From: an uncultured Lentisphaeria bacterium
Lineage (GTDB): Bacteria; Verrucomicrobiota; Lentisphaeria; Victivallales; UBA1829
Length of the DNA: 49,393 bases
Direction: 5' to 3'
Assembly: GCA_949282305.1 (NCBI GenBank)
Contig: CASDPB010000127.1
Coordinates: 1-49,393, forward strand
Shown piece by piece: positions 8,027-26,988 of the stretch. The translations under genes and the position numbers were made by a program. Below the pieces are notes generated by a model, which was not told where the DNA came from, did not search any database, and was given only the letters and a program-made list of their open reading frames with translations. Position 1 is the first letter of the stretch. Each line of letters starts with the position of its first letter.

Positions 8027-8941
8027 TTACCCTCCGGCCGGTCTGCTGCGTCCGAGCAGATGTGGGAACAGAGCCGCCGCGTTGCCGAATGCCTCGGTGC
8101 CGTAGACGACCTCGTTGCGCATGAATACATTGTCATCCTCGTCTTTGTCCAGCGAAACAAGTTTGCCGACTTTGTTTTTCAGAAGCAGGATCGGTTTCAT
8201 CACGCTGTCGAATTTGCCGAGATACCAGTCATTGGCGTAATCGCCGGTCAGCAGCGGATGCACGATGATCTGACACTTGCCCTTGTGCGGGTTCATGACC
8301 TCGTTTCCGTCCGCGTCCCTGTATTTGTCCTGCTGCATGATGATGCGGGCAGTATCCTCCAGATGCGGACCGACAATCAGATGAGTGGGACGCGAAGCGA
8401 TCGGCGTTCCCGCCGCACCGGTAAAGGTCGACATCTGCAAATAAAACGTGCCGAAGTTCTCAAAACTCAGCGCAAGCTCGGCGGTGTTGTTGATCGTGCC
8501 CGCTTTTTTATCCGTGCCGTATTTGCGGTTCGAGGCATAAAACGGTTTGCCGTCGAACCAGTCGGCGGGATTCGCCATTGCTTCAATCGTGAGCTTGTCC
8601 CAGAGTTCTTCGGTTTTTTCGCCCATCGTTGTTATGACAGTCCCGTACATGCCCCAGTTGTCCGTTTCAATCGACCGGCGCGGAATGGAGACGGAGAGTT
8701 CAAACGGTTTCTCCTTGATCCGGATTGTTTTGGTCGACAGGTTCTTGAACTGCCGGTCGCCGAGCCATTCGCGCATCCCCGAAAACTGCTCGATATACGG
8801 AAACTCAATCGAGTCGTGAGCAATGTCGCCCTCGACCATGACCAGATTGCTGTAAAGCGGTTTGTAGCCTTCCACCCCGGCTTTGAATTTGAGGTTGAAC
8901 GCGACTCTCATCGCGTCAAGATTTTTTCTGTTCAGTTCCAT
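8027..8941 (-). CDS. Major head protein, Mu gpT family
   Basis: 304 residues, the usual size for gpT. Motifs typical of the family include the N-terminal helix NRKNLDAMRVAFNLKFKAGVEGYKP, the central FENFGTFYLQMSTFTGAAGTP and GRPTHLIVGP-type segment (SRPTHLIVGPHLEDTARII), and the WYLGKFDSVMKPILLL strand. It forms the capsid shell. Neighbours on both sides are the decoration protein and gp36, exactly the Mu-type order. RBS AAAGGG with the TTTTAACAG spacer. Confidence 0.92.
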   Translation of the reverse strand: MELNRKNLDAMRVAFNLKFKAGVEGYKPLYSNLVMVEGDIAHDSIEFPYIEQFSGMREWLGDRQFKNLSTKTIRIKEKPFELSVSIPRRSIETDNWGMYGTVITTMGEKTEELWDKLTIEAMANPADWFDGKPFYASNRKYGTDKKAGTINNTAELALSFENFGTFYLQMSTFTGAAGTPIASRPTHLIVGPHLEDTARIIMQQDKYRDADGNEVMNPHKGKCQIIVHPLLTGDYANDWYLGKFDSVMKPILLLKNKVGKLVSLDKDEDDNVFMRNEVVYGTEAFGNAAALFPHLLGRSRPAGG

Positions 8942-9390: not shown

Positions 9391-10518
9391 TCAGGCTCCT
9401 TTCTTTTCGTTGAGATAATCTTCTTTCTTGATTCCGAGCGTGCGGATGATCCGTTCTTCGTCCGCGCTCAATGCGACGTCGTCGCCGTCGGCTCTGCGCG
9501 TGTCGGGCGTGACGGTATTGAGATTGACCTCGACCGCCATGTGCGGCAGCGCCGCGCTCAGCGCCTTGCTGTCAAGACTGTCAACCCACGCCTGATTCCA
9601 GGGACCGACCTTGCCCTGCGATTTTCCGACTGCAACCAGACGCGCATGTTCGGCTTTTTCCGCACTTGCCGCCATTTCGTCGAGCTTCTGCTGTTTTTCA
9701 TCCGCTCCGGCGGCTTTGTCGATGATCGCCTTGAGCGCCGCCGCGATCTCGGAGTTGCCCGCTTCTTCCGCGAGCCCCATGAGTTTTTTGATCTGTTCGA
9801 GCAGATCAGCTTTCTCCTCGACCTCGCAGGCGATCTTGTCTTTTTCCTCTTCCGGGGTTTCCCCGCTCAGCGCGAGATTGTCGCGCCCGAGCAGCCTTCC
9901 GAGCGCACTTTCAAGTTTGCCCATGCTTTCCTTTCTGTCGGACCTGCCCGACTTGTCCGATCTGTCGGACGGTGTTAAGTTTGCGGACGCGGCGAGCGCG
10001 TCCAGATGATTGATTGCCGGTTCATTCTCCATTGCGACCGATGTAAGGCGGAGCGGACCCTTTACGAGCCCCCGCAAAGCCGGTGAAAAATATTTGAAGA
10101 TTTTCTCTTTCATGAGCTCGTACGCTGTCGGCGTCCATTTGACTTTGAAGCGCAGCTCGTCGCCGTTGAGAGCAAGCGAACCGTAACCCATCGCCGCGAC
10201 GCCCGAGGGCAGCAGCCGCAGGACTTCGGACTCGTCGAGTTTTTTGATATTGGCAAGCTCATGCAGATAATGGTTCGAGTCAACCGGTATCAGTTCGCCT
10301 TTTGACTCAAAATAATCAACGATGGACTTCATGTCCTCACCGGAGAGCGTCAGGCTCCCCGCTTCGCCGTTTTTGACAATCGGATTTTCTCCGATTTTAA
10401 GCAGCGTCCATTCGATCGGAACGCCGTTTTCGTCGCGCTTGACTCCGGGCGATTCCGCGCTCAACATGATCCCGTCATGCAGCATCAGCTCCCCGGCCCG
10501 TATTCCCTGGATTTTCAT
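9391..10518 (-). CDS. Prohead protease/scaffold, Mu gpI family
   Basis: 375 residues. The N-terminal ~180 residues match the gpI protease family: EWTLLKIGENPIVKNGE, VDSNHYLHEL with the conserved NH, and ALRGLVKGPLRLTSVAMENEPAI. The rest is a charged, helical scaffold-like region (residues about 200-320), as in Mu, where the scaffold is the C-terminal part of the same frame. A linker at about residue 185 (SDRSDKSGRSDRKES) is encoded by copies of a short repeat found elsewhere in the prophage. Cleaves and guides capsid assembly. Confidence 0.88.
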   Translation of the reverse strand: MKIQGIRAGELMLHDGIMLSAESPGVKRDENGVPIEWTLLKIGENPIVKNGEAGSLTLSGEDMKSIVDYFESKGELIPVDSNHYLHELANIKKLDESEVLRLLPSGVAAMGYGSLALNGDELRFKVKWTPTAYELMKEKIFKYFSPALRGLVKGPLRLTSVAMENEPAINHLDALAASANLTPSDRSDKSGRSDRKESMGKLESALGRLLGRDNLALSGETPEEEKDKIACEVEEKADLLEQIKKLMGLAEEAGNSEIAAALKAIIDKAAGADEKQQKLDEMAASAEKAEHARLVAVGKSQGKVGPWNQAWVDSLDSKALSAALPHMAVEVNLNTVTPDTRRADGDDVALSADEERIIRTLGIKKEDYLNEKKGA

Positions 10519-10532
10519 GTTAAAACCTTTTG

Positions 10533-11060
10533 TTAAAATTCCTGTTCAAAAAAACGTCTGCTTTCCGCTTCGGTTTCCGCCTCGCTCGGCCACCACGGGC
10601 GCGCCTGCTGCATTACCGACCGTTTCAGCACAAACAGCGGCTTGACTTTTGTTTTCAACTGCGCGCCGAGATACACCTTCCCGCTTTTATCCTGCATGAA
10701 AACCGGCTTGCCTCCCGGCCACGGATAATCCCGGGCGAATATTTTTTTTCGCCGGATGCTTTTGTCGATCGGAATTGCAAGAAATTTCGCAGGCGGATTC
10801 GGGCGGATCACGCCGCCCGTGTGAACGTGTTCCGCGATGTAGCTGTCGCTGTAAACGCTTCCCGTCGCCGGTCCCGTCACTTCTTCCCTGACGCTCTGCC
10901 CGATCTCGCGTTTCCAGAAACTGCGGCCGCCCTTTTCAAATGCGTTTTTCCGCGCCAGATTCGCGATTGCAACCGCCCAGCTTTTCATAAAACGTTCCGG
11001 CGCCATGTCCAGGAATGTCTTCGGCGTATCGCCCGCGTCGACCTTGATTTTAATTTCCAT
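10533..11060 (-). CDS. Virion morphogenesis protein candidate (Mu gpG position)
   Basis: 175 residues from ATG 11060, chosen over the GTG three bases upstream because GGGAGG sits five bases before the ATG. The segments WAVAIANLARKNAFEKGGRS, AEHVHTGGVI and FLAIPIDKSIRR are of the type seen in phage virion morphogenesis (gpG) proteins, which act in head-tail joining. Lies between MuF and protease, the gpG position in Mu. A 200-base non-coding gap separates it from MuF, unusual for this otherwise tightly packed operon. Confidence 0.62.
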   Translation of the reverse strand: MEIKIKVDAGDTPKTFLDMAPERFMKSWAVAIANLARKNAFEKGGRSFWKREIGQSVREEVTGPATGSVYSDSYIAEHVHTGGVIRPNPPAKFLAIPIDKSIRRKKIFARDYPWPGGKPVFMQDKSGKVYLGAQLKTKVKPLFVLKRSVMQQARPWWPSEAETEAESRRFFEQEF

Positions 11061-11090
11061 CACACCCTCCCGATGTTCGTCCGACCCGTC

Positions 11091-11119
11091 AAAAAAGTCC
11101 GGAAAGTCCCTTGACTTCC
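11091..11119 (-). terminator. Terminator-like hairpin between MuF and gpG-like genes
   Basis: On the minus strand GGAAGTC pairs with GACTTTCC (one bulged base, four-base loop; + strand 11101-11119), followed by GGAC and a run of six T (11091-11096). It would stop or attenuate late transcription after the MuF gene. It lies 31 bases before the gpG-like start. The stem is short, so strength is uncertain. Confidence 0.45.
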
Positions 11120-11146
11120 TCGAAACAGGCGTTATTGTAACATTCA

Positions 11147-11265
11147 GGCAAGTCCGATGTTACGAGAAGTCCACCCTGTTGGAGAACTGGCATTGGACTT
11201 GCCTACGGCGGTTTCCCGCGTTACGAGTATGGCACATGTTGCGGAGCTGGCGCGGAAGACCGCCG
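11147..11265. repeat. Two tandem hairpin units with different stems and conserved loop blocks
   Basis: Unit 1 is 11147-11203: GGCAAGTCC pairs exactly with GGACTTGCC, extended by four more pairs (one G-T). Unit 2 is 11206-11265: CGGCGGT pairs with ACCGCCG and the stem continues with two single-base bulges. The stems differ in sequence but both close, while the loops share two blocks in the same order: GTTACGAG (11159-11166; 11220-11227) and a TGTTG..GAG.CTGGC block (11177-11191; 11237-11251). Unit 2 begins directly after the stop codon of the MuF gene. Active strand unknown. Confidence 0.75.
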
Positions 11266-12639
11266 TTATTTCTTTTCATGCCGCTCTTTCCAGTATTCTT
11301 TCTGCCGTTCCCGGTCCAGCACTCGCCCGCCTGAAATCTCCCACTGGTTTTCTCCGTAGGATGCGGGAGAACGATGCCAGCTCATTAACTGAAACTTCTT
11401 CGTTTTTTCATCATACCGCGCCACGCAGTAGGATTTCGTTTTCGGATCGAAAAAGGTAATAATTTTCCGAACACCATCTTCCGTTTTCTCCAAAGTTACC
11501 GTTGTTTGTGCTTTCGGATTTCCCAAAGTCGCCTGGAGAATCCGTTCCCCCTCGGCAGGATCGGCAAAAACTTCTTTATGATGTTGCCAGTTATGAGTCA
11601 ATCCGTAAGAGGCTTTCTGATCCCCGAATTCCAGCGTCACGGGGATCGGATCGCTCCCGAATCCGGCGTCCGAACAGGTCTGCGCGGATATTTTCCCGAC
11701 CTCGATTTCCGCAGGAAAATCATCTTGTATTTTCTTCGGGATTTTCGTTCGTTCTTCGGGATTGTTTTCTTTGAATTTTTTATCCTGCCGCTCATATCCC
11801 GGCTGCCGCTTCGGGTCCCATTGCGCCTTGTCCACGGACTCCTCCGCAACCGGCTGGATCTTCCGCATGGCGTCCGTCATCCTGCCCAGTCCATTCAGAG
11901 CCGCGCGCGGATGCGCCTGCTTCGGGCTTTCCACGATCAGACCGATTTTGCGGATTTTACCGGCGCGCACCGACTGTTCCATGCTTCGGACAACCTCCGG
12001 GCGGTCCTTGAGCTGCGTGACGTCGTTTTCGCGGAACGCATTCGCCGGATTGAACATGAATCCGCTTTCCGCATCATATTCCGCTTTCCGGAATTTCTGC
12101 GCCCCGCCGAGCTTTTCCGCCCGTTTCGCGGTGATCTGCTCGCCCCAGCACCGGCAGTTGTAATCCCATTTGCCGGGCATGTGCGTTTGCAGGAACGGAT
12201 CGTCCTTGCTGAATATTTTGCCGTCCAGAGCCGCGTGCGACGGCCTCACGAATCCGTCTTTGTTCGCGTGATAAATCACATACGGCAGATCGTCTTTCGT
12301 CTCCATCCAGACCTGCCACTCTCCGACTCCGCGCGCAATCTGGCGCTGTGTATTCAGCACCGCTGTCGCCCGGCTCCGCGCCGCAAGGTTTCTTGCAATC
12401 TCATCCGGACTGTTCCCGCCGATTTCCTTGAATCGTTCCTGCGCCTCGGTCATCGTGATTTTACCGGCGGCATAATCGTCTGCGACAAAGCGAAAATCGT
12501 CGATCAGATTTGCCTGCGTCAGCTTCGCGATCAGAAACGCGCGGGAGTTGAGTTCCTCCCCGATCTCTTTGAGCTCCGCCGTGCTTTTCCGCGTCACCAG
12601 ATTTACACGGCTTTTCTGCCAGTTTTCGATCGTGTTCAT
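11266..12639 (-). CDS. MuF head morphogenesis protein with nuclease-like C-terminal extension
   Basis: 457 residues. Residues 1-170 are a MuF/SPP1-gp7 minor head domain: ARSRATAVLNTQRQIARG, then the end signature MPGKWDYNCRCWGEQI. Residues about 250-457 are not part of a normal gpF. They contain SYGLTHNWQHHKEVF, FFDPKTKSYCVARYD and FQLMSWHRSPASYG, a pattern resembling the Barnase/EndoU/ColicinE5-D/RelE-type nuclease domains often fused to MuF proteins (PBECR-like). Such extensions are thought to enter the new host with the DNA. Nuclease activity is inference; candidate catalytic residues are the histidines in LTHNW and SWHR. ATGA overlap with portal. Confidence 0.85.
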   Translation of the reverse strand: MNTIENWQKSRVNLVTRKSTAELKEIGEELNSRAFLIAKLTQANLIDDFRFVADDYAAGKITMTEAQERFKEIGGNSPDEIARNLAARSRATAVLNTQRQIARGVGEWQVWMETKDDLPYVIYHANKDGFVRPSHAALDGKIFSKDDPFLQTHMPGKWDYNCRCWGEQITAKRAEKLGGAQKFRKAEYDAESGFMFNPANAFRENDVTQLKDRPEVVRSMEQSVRAGKIRKIGLIVESPKQAHPRAALNGLGRMTDAMRKIQPVAEESVDKAQWDPKRQPGYERQDKKFKENNPEERTKIPKKIQDDFPAEIEVGKISAQTCSDAGFGSDPIPVTLEFGDQKASYGLTHNWQHHKEVFADPAEGERILQATLGNPKAQTTVTLEKTEDGVRKIITFFDPKTKSYCVARYDEKTKKFQLMSWHRSPASYGENQWEISGGRVLDRERQKEYWKERHEKK

Positions 12640-14612
12640 GTTTCCTCCGGTGCGCTGTTGCGCCGCGCCTCCCGCATTCCCGCGAGATATCCGGCGGCGA
12701 GTTCCCGCTGCACCGCCGCCGCAAACACATCCGTGTCGATCGGCGGTTCCGCAAGCAATTGCTCTGTTTTTTTCCGGAATTCAGCCTCGGACAGATCCGC
12801 ATTGAGTGTCAGCTCCGATAATTGTTTCGCAAATTCCCCGAGCCACCGATCCGCAAATCCGTCAGACTCTTTTTTTTTATCCTCTGAGCTCAGTTCCGAT
12901 GCTTTTTCCCGCACCGGCTCGGATTTCAGAACGATTGCATCGACAGGAATGTCGAGTGTCGCGGACAGCAAAGCATTGGTTCCGCGCGTCTGGTGGATCA
13001 ATCCCCATTGCAGAGCGGCAACCAGAGCCTCACCCCGTTCCTGCCGTTTTTCAGCGGACAGAGCTTTGACGTCCTGTTCGATTTTATCGGTGTCTTCATC
13101 TTCAATATTCAAGGCGTCTTCCACGGCTGCCGATTCTGCGGTTTTCAGCGTGATCGGCTGCCGGATTCCTCCGGTCGCCTCCCATGCTTTCTGCACCTCC
13201 GGCGTCATTGCAGGCAAACCGAGTTCTGTCCGCGTCTGCGCTTCAATCTCCGGCGTTGCCGTCAACAGTCCCGCGCGGATCGCCACGCCCATCGCGTCAT
13301 ATTTCTGCTTCAAGTTCAGATTATGCGCCGCGTCAGCATCTTCCGTGCTTGTCGGTGTTTGTCCGCCCTGTCCGAATTGCCCGAAGCCTTCCATGCCCAT
13401 TACGGGCATTTCGCGCCGTGTCAGCTTCAATCCGACCTTTTCTCCGACTTCAGCCGGATCAGCCTCAAGCCCTGCGTTGTAAAGCGTCGCGACCGTTGTT
13501 GCAAACGCCGCCGTGTCTTCGGGCGGTTCGGTCTGAAAATGGATTTTCGGAACCGCGGCGGCACCGAAATTGTAGCGTGTCCACGGCGCCGCGATCTGCG
13601 CACGGATCGTCGATTCCAGCGCCCGCGCGTCCGCCTCAAGAATATCCTGCCGGACCGCGCTCTGCGCCCCGCCGCCGCTCAGCCCCTGACCGTCCGACGA
13701 GCTTGCAAGCTGACCGACCAGCGTGCGGTAAATCGCTTCGCGCGTATAGTCAAGCAGCCGGAAATAGACATTGCCCTCGGAATTCGCCGCCTGAAGCAGC
13801 GAGATGTCCGTCGAATTGGTGACGACTCCGCCGCCGGAGGGACCAAACTGCCTGACCATCTGATGCAGTTTTACAAGCTCCTCCTCCCATGTCTGCCGGT
13901 CGACTTTCGCAAGCACGAACGGCATGCCGTAACGTTCCACGAACGAAAACAAATCCTTGATCGGGAAATTCTGGAACACATGCAGCCATGCAAGCGTGCG
14001 GATCAACCCCGACCGCGCCGGGTCCTGTTTTTTCTTGAAACGGTGGATCACAAACTTGTCAGGCGGCAGCTCCATGCCGTTCGGGAACTCGTCGCAAATG
14101 AGGCGCGGAACAAAACTTTCCCGCAGCGTGAAATGCCATGCGTCCACGGTCTTGAAACCGCCGAGACCGCCGCCCGGCGTCCAGATGATTTCAGCCGCCG
14201 CAAACGGGGCAATCACCGCGTCCGTCAGATTGCGGATGAGGTCATAAAACGTATCATAGCCGTTGAGTTCGCCGCACTCGGCAAGCTCCGCGGCAAATGC
14301 TTTCGCGGCGGCTTTGTCGGCGTCCCCGGTTCCCCCGGGTACGACGTCCCATTTGACGCCGCTGATCGCGTCCGCCCGCTGTTCCATCGCGCCGATGACG
14401 TCCCAGTTGCGCTCCATGATTTCGCGTGCGCAAATGGCAAGCTGTTCGATGTCGCCGGAGTTCGCGGCGCTCATGATTGAGGTCAGACGCTCAGGCGTAT
14501 AAGTGACCATTGACTCGTAGCGGGAGCGGTCGCCCGGCATGGGCAGGAGAAACGCCCCGCTCTGCGGTATGGCCCGTTCAGACCGGCCACGAGTTTGTCT
14601 TTGATATTTCAT
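12636..14612 (-). CDS. Portal protein, Mu gp29 family (DUF935)
   Basis: 658 residues, somewhat longer than the ~510 usual for gp29. Family patterns: REIMERNWDVIGAMEQRADAISG at the N-terminus, WHFTLRESFVPRLICDEFPNG, RSGLIRTLAWLHVFQNFPIKDLFSFVERYGMPFV (in parts) and the DILEADARALESTIRAQIAAPWTRYNFG segment. Forms the dodecameric DNA gate of the head. The extra length is a polar, Glu/Asp/Lys-rich C-terminal tail from about residue 440. The gene overlaps terminase by 35 bases and MuF by 4. Confidence 0.92.
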   Translation of the reverse strand: MKYQRQTRGRSERAIPQSGAFLLPMPGDRSRYESMVTYTPERLTSIMSAANSGDIEQLAICAREIMERNWDVIGAMEQRADAISGVKWDVVPGGTGDADKAAAKAFAAELAECGELNGYDTFYDLIRNLTDAVIAPFAAAEIIWTPGGGLGGFKTVDAWHFTLRESFVPRLICDEFPNGMELPPDKFVIHRFKKKQDPARSGLIRTLAWLHVFQNFPIKDLFSFVERYGMPFVLAKVDRQTWEEELVKLHQMVRQFGPSGGGVVTNSTDISLLQAANSEGNVYFRLLDYTREAIYRTLVGQLASSSDGQGLSGGGAQSAVRQDILEADARALESTIRAQIAAPWTRYNFGAAAVPKIHFQTEPPEDTAAFATTVATLYNAGLEADPAEVGEKVGLKLTRREMPVMGMEGFGQFGQGGQTPTSTEDADAAHNLNLKQKYDAMGVAIRAGLLTATPEIEAQTRTELGLPAMTPEVQKAWEATGGIRQPITLKTAESAAVEDALNIEDEDTDKIEQDVKALSAEKRQERGEALVAALQWGLIHQTRGTNALLSATLDIPVDAIVLKSEPVREKASELSSEDKKKESDGFADRWLGEFAKQLSELTLNADLSEAEFRKKTEQLLAEPPIDTDVFAAAVQRELAAGYLAGMREARRNSAPEET

Positions 14613-16020
14613 ATTGTTTCCGCCTCATTCGGTTCGGTTCGTTAAAACTGTTTCTGATTGCCTGTTCCGGCGTGACGCTCCTGCTTGCCTCCATCCGGCA
14701 CGGACCGTCGTTTCTGCCTTTGGCATGGAGCGCCAAAGCCAGCGCCCAGAATCGGTCGCTGTGACCGTTTTCGTCGCGTTCGCCCTCATACCGAATGTTG
14801 CCTGCGGCGGTCGTCGTTTTGCGTATTTTATGAAGATCGTCACGGATTTCCGGATCGTCGGCGACACGGATCGTGCGATCCTCGAACGAGGCGCGCAGCG
14901 GCATTGCCAGCGACTCTTTGACCGGATTGGAAAACGTGACCCCCTCGACGCGATACTCCCCGTAACAGCGCTGGAGCTCCTCGCAGATCGGGCCGCCCAT
15001 GCCGGTGTAGTCGAGGCAGAGCCGCGCAAGTTTCGGATTTTTGAGTTTGTTTTTCAGAAAATCGGTCTGCACCGGGAAACTTGTTTTTTTGAGCACCTCA
15101 TACTCAACCTGCCAGAGCACATCGCCGCGCAGTTCAAGTTCAAAATAAACCGCGAGGTCCTTCTTCCGTCCGACGTCGTAACCGGCATAACGCAGATAGT
15201 GACTGTCATTCTCCGCTTTCGCCTCGCGTGCGGGGATTTCGCAGGATGCGATGAGCTCATAGGAGAGCAGCGCGGCACCGTCTGTGGAAGGCACGATCAG
15301 ATACTGCGTGTTCCACGCCTCCTCGGTGCGGCATTTCGCGCGGATCATCGCGAGCCATTCGGCACGCTCATAATGCTGTCCGCTGACCTGATTGATCTTT
15401 TCGACAAATCCTTGATCAACTGCATCTAAAATCGTTGTCCGGTGATGACTCCATCCCATCGGATTTCCGTTGTCGAGGATATCGCGCTCCATGCGACAGA
15501 ACGGTGTATTCGGACCGCCGTCCACGCTCAGCGCGGAGAGCATCTCAAGCTGATTGCCCCACGTTGTGCAAGGCATTGCCATGTCGATGACTTTGCCGCT
15601 GTCCTTGTGCAGATCCGCCTCGTCGATGAGCACGTCGCCGCCTTTGCCCGCAAACGCTTCCGGCGTGCTGGAGAGCGACACCACGCGCGAGCCGGTCGAC
15701 TCGTAAGTCGCCACAAACGCGCGGATGCCCTTTTCCGTGTCGATAACCTGTAAATCGTCTCCGAGCAGCCCCTTGCAGACGACGTTCGACGCCTGCGCCC
15801 ATTTCGCGATGTAGTCGGTGATGAATTCATGCGCCGTGAGCTCGTCGCGCGATGTCACCCATTGCGTGAAGTTCCGCCGCCGCAGACACTTGTCATTGAC
15901 GCGGTAACTGGTCGCATAGGTGATCCCGATCCGCCGCGATTTCGCGTATAGTTTCATTGGCGACTCGTCCAGAATCCACGCCCGCTGATAAGGAAGAAAA
16001 TAATCGTTGACCGGATTCAT
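14578..16020 (-). CDS. Large terminase subunit, Mu gp28 family
   Basis: 480 residues. ATPase half: Walker-A-like AKSRRIGIT at residues 26-34 and Walker B DVLIDEADLH near residue 130, followed by a coupling-type segment. Nuclease half (RNase H fold): RYAGYDVGRKKDLAV, LARLCLDYTGMGGP and the C-terminal acidic motif HSDRFWALALALHAKG. It packages DNA into heads, and in Mu-like phages cuts headful lengths that include host DNA. ATGA overlap with the small subunit upstream. Confidence 0.93.
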   Translation of the reverse strand: MNPVNDYFLPYQRAWILDESPMKLYAKSRRIGITYATSYRVNDKCLRRRNFTQWVTSRDELTAHEFITDYIAKWAQASNVVCKGLLGDDLQVIDTEKGIRAFVATYESTGSRVVSLSSTPEAFAGKGGDVLIDEADLHKDSGKVIDMAMPCTTWGNQLEMLSALSVDGGPNTPFCRMERDILDNGNPMGWSHHRTTILDAVDQGFVEKINQVSGQHYERAEWLAMIRAKCRTEEAWNTQYLIVPSTDGAALLSYELIASCEIPAREAKAENDSHYLRYAGYDVGRKKDLAVYFELELRGDVLWQVEYEVLKKTSFPVQTDFLKNKLKNPKLARLCLDYTGMGGPICEELQRCYGEYRVEGVTFSNPVKESLAMPLRASFEDRTIRVADDPEIRDDLHKIRKTTTAAGNIRYEGERDENGHSDRFWALALALHAKGRNDGPCRMEASRSVTPEQAIRNSFNEPNRMRRKQYEISKTNSWPV

Positions 16021-17765: not shown

Positions 17766-17861
17766 TGGCGTCTCCGGTCGGACTCGAACCGACGAGACAC
17801 GGCAAGCGGCGCCGCCAACCGTGCCACCCATGGCTGCATTTGGCCGCTCTGCCACGGAGAC
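17766..17861 (-). tRNA. tRNA-like gene with non-canonical anticodon arm (Ser/Cys-type D arm)
   Basis: On minus: acceptor GTCTCCG pairs perfectly with CGGAGAC, followed by discriminator G and encoded CCA. T arm is perfect (GTCGG, loop TTCGAGT, CCGAC). The D arm (GCAGAGCGGCCAAATGC) is of Ser/Cys type. The middle 42 bases do not give a normal 5+7 anticodon arm: the position-equivalent stem GCCAT/ACGGT has one mismatch, its loop GGGTGGC lacks U33 and would read GTG, and an alternative stem CACGG/CCGTG has a 16-base loop. Length 93 plus CCA fits a class II tRNA. Function uncertain; may be degenerate. Confidence 0.6.
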
Positions 17862-26134: not shown

Positions 26135-26882
26135 GACCACCACCAGCAGAAAAATCTTCCGGTTTCTGGACGGCGCCGCCCGCCTGGGACAGTTCTCCTA
26201 CATGTTCGGTCCCACGGGACGCGGCAAAAGTTTCATCACACGCAAATGGATCGAAGCCAAAGGCAATGCCGCGTGCGTCCGCGCAAGAACCGGCGTCACG
26301 CAGACCGGACTCCGGAAGCAGATCAGCCTTGCCCTGTTCGGCGACGACGGCGCGCGGGAACATGAGATACTGCAATACTTTTTGGAGCATCCCGGCTTTG
26401 TCCTGGTCGTGGACGAGGCGAATCATCTGCTCATGGACGGCAATCTCCGGAGCGCGAAGTGTCTGGACTCCGTCCGCGATTACCATGACGCAGTGCAGGA
26501 GGCGGGCGGCCGCATGAGCGTCGTATTCATCTTCACGGAATACAGCCTCGACCGTCTGCGGAAGTGCAGGATCGCCGCATTCCTTCAGCAGTTCATCAAT
26601 CGGGGCGACAATCATCTGGACATCCCCCGTAAAATCTCCCGCGCCTACGAGATCATTCCCACGGTCAGAGCCTATATTCCCGATCCGCCGGAGGGGCTGA
26701 TCAATGAGGCATGCCGCTTTCACGATATCCGGTCGTTGCACAAACGGCTCGAGGCCGCCGTCAATCACTGCAACAAAACCGGTGCGCCCGTCAGCGCTGA
26801 AATCCTTGCCGGACTTCAGCTCCAGTTCGAGACCGGCAGTTACGAAGACGAAGACGCAGACCGGAGATTTCTTAACTCTTAA
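26106..26882 (+). CDS. MuB-like AAA ATPase, transposition target selector
   Basis: 258 residues. Walker A GPTGRGKS at residues 35-42, Walker B VLVVDEAN at 99-106, sensor-type segment SVVFIFTEYSLDRLRKC. MuB polymers bind target DNA, stimulate MuA and give target immunity. The usual N-terminal HTH of Mu MuB is absent, as in the shorter B proteins. Overlaps the transposase by 29 bases, so the two are coupled. The C-terminus (YEDEDADRRFLNS) runs into the long inverted repeat. Confidence 0.9.
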   Translation: MSHESSTLIKTTTSRKIFRFLDGAARLGQFSYMFGPTGRGKSFITRKWIEAKGNAACVRARTGVTQTGLRKQISLALFGDDGAREHEILQYFLEHPGFVLVVDEANHLLMDGNLRSAKCLDSVRDYHDAVQEAGGRMSVVFIFTEYSLDRLRKCRIAAFLQQFINRGDNHLDIPRKISRAYEIIPTVRAYIPDPPEGLINEACRFHDIRSLHKRLEAAVNHCNKTGAPVSAEILAGLQLQFETGSYEDEDADRRFLNS

Positions 26883-26894
26883 CTGGTCAATGGA

Positions 26895-26988
26895 CAGAAA
26901 AGCAGGTCAAAGGGCGGCAGCCCTTTCCTCCACTGATCACTGATCACTGACCACTGAAAATAACTCTTAACTCTTAACTCTTAACTGA
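26895..26988 (-). repeat. Right arm of long inverted repeat (partner 17381-17474)
   Basis: Begins 13 bases after the MuB stop. Contains hairpin AAAGGGC-GGCA-GCCCTTT (26909-26926), CACTGATCACTGATCACTGA, and three TTAACTC units. The match to the reverse complement of 17381-17474 extends over the whole length with short gaps. A shorter copy of its end (TAACTCTTAACTGAA) recurs at 28808-28822, before another strong ribosome site. Confidence 0.88.

Follow-up and report, generated by a model that had tools for sequence, protein, structure and literature searches.

A predicted antisense structured RNA as candidate immunity gene for the BECR-type RNase domain of a phage MuF head protein

The prophage locus and its paired hairpins

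The window, meaning the whole stretch of 49,393 nucleotides that was analysed, carries a Mu-like prophage in a Lentisphaeria genome, with the phage late genes on the minus strand. The features at the locus are the following.

8027-8941, minus strand: gpT capsid gene
9391-10518, minus strand: I-like protease gene
10533-11063, minus strand: late gene of 176 aa, the next one after MuF
11111-11138, plus strand: sigma70-like promoter, TTGACT-16-TATTGT, with the best antisense promoter score among 15 late-gene 3' ends in the window
11145-11278, plus strand: predicted small non-coding RNA of about 134 nt comprising a pair of type-1 hairpins and a 3' end rich in U, called from promoter position, fold and homologues
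11146-11204, plus strand: hairpin unit 1, arms 11146-11159 and 11191-11204, 93% complementary, variable stem AGGCAAGTCCGAT / ATTGGACTTGCCT, covariance model E 3e-16
11159-11191, plus strand: conserved core of unit 1, GTTACGAG ... TGTTGGAGAACTGGC
11205-11266, plus strand: hairpin unit 2, arms 11205-11220 and 11251-11266, 88% complementary, stem ACGGCGGTTTCCCGC / GCGGAAGACCGCCGT, covariance model E 7e-13
11220-11251, plus strand: conserved core of unit 2, GTTACGAG ... TGTTGCGGAGCTGGC
11266-11277, plus strand: U-rich end TTATTTCTTTTC, whose reverse complement is the last codons and stop of MuF
11266-12639, minus strand: MuF head protein with C-terminal nuclease-like domain, Pfam Phage_Mu_F E 1.4e-15
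11269-11724, minus strand: MuF C-terminal domain, candidate BECR-fold RNase with GLTHNWQHHK helix and C-terminal Ser, from alignment, AlphaFold2 and structural matches
12636-14612, minus strand: portal gene
14578-16020, minus strand: terminase gene

Outside this region, ARAGORN called a minus-strand tRNA-His of 96 nt at window positions 17766-17861, close to where the late region ends, and several GTTAAGAG matches at 26876-26985, three of them spaced 7 nt, form a small heptamer repeat.

The sequence-only reading of this DNA had described two hairpins with differing stems and constant loop blocks between the MuF gene and the 176-aa gene. It had taken them for a selected RNA or hairpin DNA structure with one of three roles, namely an RNA partner for the fused nuclease, an attenuator or a mobile palindromic element. 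The hairpins do lie there, and both stems close, an observation that proved real and stronger than stated. The fold of the plus-strand RNA consists of both hairpins and surpassed that of shuffled sequences (z -2.6, 2/200); a chance origin is excluded by the existence of covariance-model homologues. Among 16 aligned type-1 copies, as copies of this hairpin are termed here, two-sided changes were observed at 13 of the 17 stem pairs and 96% of alignment cells paired, a proportion that dropped to 38% when the partner was slid by one column. As the covariation score was moreover reached by none of 500 shuffles, selection on the structure is borne out. The conserved blocks keep their cores and fixed order as described, but they are not plain loops. 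The GUUA in block one is base-paired to the UGGC in block two, with two conserved U.G wobbles, and this pairing encloses first an internal loop and then an apical stem of 3 bp, which covaries as well (CCA/UGG, GCA/UGC, CUA/UAG). What was presumed to be a loop is therefore made up of these two elements. Similarities between GUUACGAG/ACCUUGUU and the complement of the 16S 1492 region and between UACGAG and the sarcin-ricin loop were judged to be chance, and a likeness of UUACGAG to the tRNA-Arg(ACG) anticodon loop was rejected since, with GUUA base-paired, the geometry is wrong.

Across the type-1 family, a sigma70-like promoter ends just 5' of the first stem of each copy or array and a T-rich tract follows most of them. 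Promoters of relatives read TTGACA-16-TATAAT in G087, TTGACT-17-TATAAT in G107 and TTGAAA-17-TATAAT in G277; the exception is G130, with a sigma54-like promoter and no clear U-tract. In the window, unit 2 and the subsequent T-rich stretch constitute an end resembling an intrinsic terminator, and the U-rich end of the predicted RNA directly adjoins the stop codon of MuF, which is encoded on the other strand. We accordingly predict from sequence that 11145-11278 is a stand-alone structured RNA gene of the plus strand. The promoter, the strand of the motif and the U-tract are all oriented against the operon, which speaks against an attenuator. The promoter and strand, like the toxin-type pairing and tRNA-like relatives described below, go beyond what the sequence-only reading had seen.

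Distribution and settings of the type-1 RNA

A pattern search of 149 related genomes gave one more locus, G130, where three tandem units have the same cores and different stems. Covariance models, built first from five units and then from 16, found 17 type-1 copies, with E from 2e-18 to 3e-9; these belong to 10 of the 198 Lentisphaeria genomes, and no genome has more than three, so that the search proposed earlier did yield further copies with covarying stems. A pattern scan of 84,980 species returned nine Lentisphaeria contigs and four actinobacterial matches that were judged to be chance, two having a weak 9-of-16 stem and the other two no stem. Weak model matches without the conserved core (L035-L038, E 0.004-0.09) were likewise treated as chance. 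The pattern scan of IMG/VR gave no exact type-1 match, and two later IMG/VR matches (L065, L066) were chance coding matches without stems. The window type-1 RNA matched nothing in Rfam at E ≤ 10, nor did the whole window at E ≤ 1; the type-1 RNA is a family absent from Rfam.

G107 is another Mu-like prophage remnant in which the type-1 RNA is again antisense and abuts the stop codon of the MuF C-terminal domain (CT1), which is 65% identical to that of the window. In 8 of the 10 genomes the copies occur only outside MuF and without a toxin remnant, and a toxin-unrelated host role is therefore possible. The G130 array (L064:3043-3235) consists of three hairpins between a sigma54-like promoter, TGGCACGGCTTTTGC, and rtcA-rtcB, beside a divergent rtcR. 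This setting in an rsr/rtc operon was found in only one of the 10 genomes, and a test for co-occurrence of type-1 RNA and rtcA was negative. The rtc operon of the source genome (L022:2486-3007) has no hairpins and instead an extra ORF between rtcR and rtcA. Metal-independent RNases leave ends with 2',3'-cyclic phosphate. As RtcR is activated by tRNA halves with such ends (PMC7790460), a type-1 array in an RtcR-type operon would make sense, at this one locus.

Some further observations were made in these genomes. Other GC-rich inverted repeats occupy the rtcR-rtcA leader in G012 (L019) and G045 (L024), and in G005 and G017 (L020, L023) a vWA/Ro60-like (Rsr) coding sequence lies, by eye, apparently directly upstream of rtcA. 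G087 (L062:4656-8408) has two duplicated promoter-hairpin units convergent with a 1250-aa protein that by eye resembles a type IIG restriction-modification enzyme. At L055 and L061 a tRNA gene (tRNA-Leu and tRNA-Arg) precedes the type-1 copy in the same orientation and could be an integration site.

MuF C-terminal domains and the RNAs behind them

A Phage_Mu_F domain followed by variable C-terminal domains within the phage packaging module, the arrangement that marks MuF polymorphic toxins, was found here. The AlphaFold2 model of the window domain (152 aa, pLDDT 85.8) has a His-bearing helix (41-48, with H44), then H49, four strands (73-81, 84-93, 98-105 and 110-118) and a Ser near the end, which is the PBECR layout of His helix, four strands and C-terminal Ser. 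Across alignment A5 of C-terminal domains the G, H and H are invariant. The best VIA-align matches were CdiA-CT 8ey4 (Z 5.7), colicin D 1v74 (5.7) and 1tfo (5.2), and CdiA 7m5f (5.1), followed by CdiA and RelE/YoeB toxins, with Z from 5.7 to 4.2 overall. The top 16 matches were all toxin-system entries, nearly all of one superfamily, at a modest Z below 6. Foldseek alone gave no significant match (best E 0.07, RelE), and Pfam gave no family at E ≤ 10 and hence no curated PBECR family. Concerning membership of ToxN, AbiQ, CptN, TenpN or AbiF, Pfam gave no match, and the structural neighbours among the matches listed were BECR RNases. Searches of the C-terminal domains against curated proteins, PDB sequences and phage collections returned nothing useful, and a structure model of another C-terminal domain (pLDDT 51.6) was too poor for use. 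The BECR-like fold seen in the model of the window domain agrees with the active PBECR RNase domains described on MuF proteins in PMC5512222, and we take the domain to be a BECR-fold RNase candidate. The 176-aa gene follows MuF in the window and in G020 and lies between portal and MuF in most relatives; as its homologues are often upstream of MuF, it is not a dedicated immunity gene.

The regions behind MuF genes of 30 Lentisphaeria genomes were compared. At many MuF genes an antisense promoter and a structured RNA with a U-tract, but with other RNA cores, were observed at the position seen in the window, and the MuF genes with such RNAs were those whose C-terminal domain bears GxxH..H. Every testable BECR-type MuF gene had both promoter and RNA behind it (15, plus one out-of-sample). 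The promoter matrix score fully separated the 15 BECR-type loci, which include L083 and L089 added after inspection by eye, from 11 other MuF loci (Mann-Whitney p 1e-5). With classes set solely by the GxxH..H motif and these two left out, p was 4e-4; both values come from related phages of shared ancestry, so that the loci are not fully independent, and from mostly metagenome-assembled genomes. G104, found later through a domain profile, fitted the prediction (TTGACA...TATATT, hairpin, U-tract). Loci with other toxins, whose classes (ADP-ribosyltransferase-like, protease-like, others) were named by eye, had neither antisense promoter nor structured RNA; at most of them a small ORF directly adjoins the MuF stop, which is what protein immunity would lead one to expect. 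No such ORF was seen at the BECR-type loci. A CGAG element shared among the various RNAs was not clearly above chance. Of the three roles suggested earlier, the RNA partner for the fused nuclease is favoured by this restriction of antisense RNAs to BECR-type MuF toxins.

The type of RNA was found to follow the type of toxin domain. Type 1 goes with CT1 (window, G107), and type 2a/2b goes with CT2, marked by HLWRNHKELF (G108, G052, G015, G082 and an IMG/VR phage contig). The second RNA type reads CCGAGUGUG..CACGAUU..GCCUGCGG, with the sibling form GCGUUA..CACGAUU..UGUG. In G107 the two follow in tandem, in the order CT1, RNA 1, truncated CT2, RNA 2a and protease, and in G022 a domain with about 50% identity to CT2 is accompanied by a further, different RNA. 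The type-2a model found 18 copies in 14 genomes, and its covariation score was reached by none of 500 shuffles. Copies of type 2a away from an intact MuF have their own promoters, and several lie beside a short remnant of the CT2 3' end, unlike the chromosomal type-1 copies; this RNA therefore outlives its toxin.

Some of the RNAs resemble tRNA. The RNA behind the G031 MuF gene gave a match to Rfam tRNA-Sec that stays below the cutoff of that family (E 0.0026). An 85% paralogue of it belongs to a chromosomal array whose RNA units share one promoter. A cloverleaf with a 7-nt loop in the 3' arm was observed in 5 of 6 RNAs examined and in only 0.2-2.4% of interior shuffles, a descriptive figure, since the six were chosen for their tRNA-like appearance. 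In most of the six the middle arm has a short loop and not an anticodon loop, and the type-1 hairpins themselves are not visibly tRNA-like. Upstream of a prs-like gene (L109:1424-1690, G031:C72), one sigma70-like promoter is followed by a chromosomal array that contains two or more distinct tRNA-like RNAs as well as a third hairpin.

Proposed role and comparison with known systems

The reading that we prefer, at a probability of roughly 0.68, is that the structured RNA is an immunity (antidote) RNA for the BECR-type RNase domain of the phage MuF head protein. In a lysogen with silent late genes the RNA would be made from its own sigma70 promoter, and MuF would enter with an infecting virion or leak from late expression. 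The RNA would bind the RNase domain and block its activity, probably via non-productive mimicry of the target RNA, being tRNA-shaped in several relatives and consisting of minimal hairpins here. Matched cassettes of toxin domain and RNA may move together, and hosts may keep orphan or arrayed RNAs as immunity once the toxin decays. We lean slightly towards a wider form of this proposal, in which phage-head polymorphic RNase toxins have antisense, toxin-matched decoy RNA immunity genes, several of them tRNA-shaped, with a lengthened acceptor stem but lacking a proper anticodon loop. These would be exchanged as cassettes and banked by bacteria as orphans or arrays, once in an RNA-repair operon.

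The RNA and the late operon are convergent, and the end of the RNA coincides exactly with the MuF stop codon. The RNA could therefore instead act in cis, as an antisense transcript with a convergent terminator, and so limit MuF expression or transcription of the late operon. The overlap with MuF coding sequence is however only about a dozen nt, which makes antisense repression of MuF unlikely; the cores have been kept in chromosomal copies that have no MuF in their vicinity, other MuF classes have no such RNA, and antisense pairing needs no covarying structure. We consider this explanation improbable. A small RNA of the host with a regulatory or protein-binding function, linked for example to RNA repair, that was acquired by phages and lies near an RNase incidentally would account for the type-1 copies away from phages in eight genomes and for the G130 array between its promoter and rtcA, beside rtcR. 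The distribution in 10 of 198 genomes is nevertheless patchy, no common neighbours were seen and rtcA does not co-occur; different RNAs, moreover, fill the same site behind related toxins, and RNA type follows toxin type. This origin is unlikely.

The same linkage and type matching would be expected if the RNA served the RNase as a cofactor, be it guide, activator or packaged cargo, and not as an antidote. Protection is a better fit to RNAs that keep promoter and structure after truncation or loss of the toxin, and a promoter of its own, directed against the late operon, precedes the RNA, leaving the cofactor role quite improbable. Hairpins with conserved loops, sometimes duplicated in tandem (G277, G087), could also suggest a REP- or MITE-like mobile palindromic repeat or a self-cleaving ribozyme. 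Against the mobile palindrome raised in the sequence-only reading stand the low number of at most three copies per genome, the promoter possessed by each copy or array together with conserved strand-specific cores, and the U-tract on most. No Rfam ribozyme or other family matched at E ≤ 10. To our knowledge the type-1 cores are also unlike hammerhead or twister, and both forms of this alternative are highly improbable.

Returning to the antidote reading, the window domain may be compared with PBECR (phage Barnase-EndoU-ColicinE5/D-RelE) domains, which PMC5512222 describes as fused to MuF, with a His in the N-terminal helix and a C-terminal Ser/Thr. It is likewise MuF-fused with helix His and C-terminal Ser, and its subfamily is unmatched by Pfam. 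That paper mentions no RNA partner or antisense gene. MuF polymorphic toxins are described in PMC5576092 as a MuF N-terminus with exchangeable C-terminal toxin domains, in temperate phages and with an immunity gene expected just downstream, and no RNA partner was found there. The protein layout is the same here, whereas immunity would apparently be provided by an opposite-strand RNA and not a small protein. In the literature examined, the immunity discussed for MuF polymorphic toxins is protein throughout, and no RNA immunity for polymorphic toxins was found in the open literature, most subscription journals falling outside this search. If true, RNA immunity would explain the absence of an immunity ORF at BECR-type MuF toxins, and ORF-limited searches for immunity would miss a class. 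The loci would then also offer a natural set of matched RNase and decoy pairs, whose RNAs may reveal the target of each toxin, and phage-phage conflict would be linked to RNA repair.

Y RNAs and YrlA of rsr-yrlA-rtcBA operons are likewise structured, partly tRNA-like RNAs in an RtcR-controlled operon, a likeness that concerns the single G130 array. Unlike these, the RNAs described here have another sequence and structure, no Ro60 linkage was seen, and most copies lie elsewhere under sigma70-like promoters. A close arrangement is that of type III toxin-antitoxin systems (ToxIN, CptIN, TenpIN; AbiF-RCd22), where an RNase toxin, here a candidate RNase, lies beside a structured RNA with promoter and terminator, often of repeated hairpins. 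In type III the repeats are encoded ahead of the toxin, on its own strand (PMC8860590, PMC12373285), whereas in the linked loci the phage RNA is found behind the 3' end of the toxin gene and antisense to it, and for this reason it is not filed under type III. It differs further in having one to three units, with a single unit at many loci, though promoter and U-tract are present, in a BECR-like toxin domain fused to a virion protein, and in the tRNA shape of several of the RNAs. In type III systems the RNA inhibits the toxin directly, and the same is proposed for the phage RNA here.
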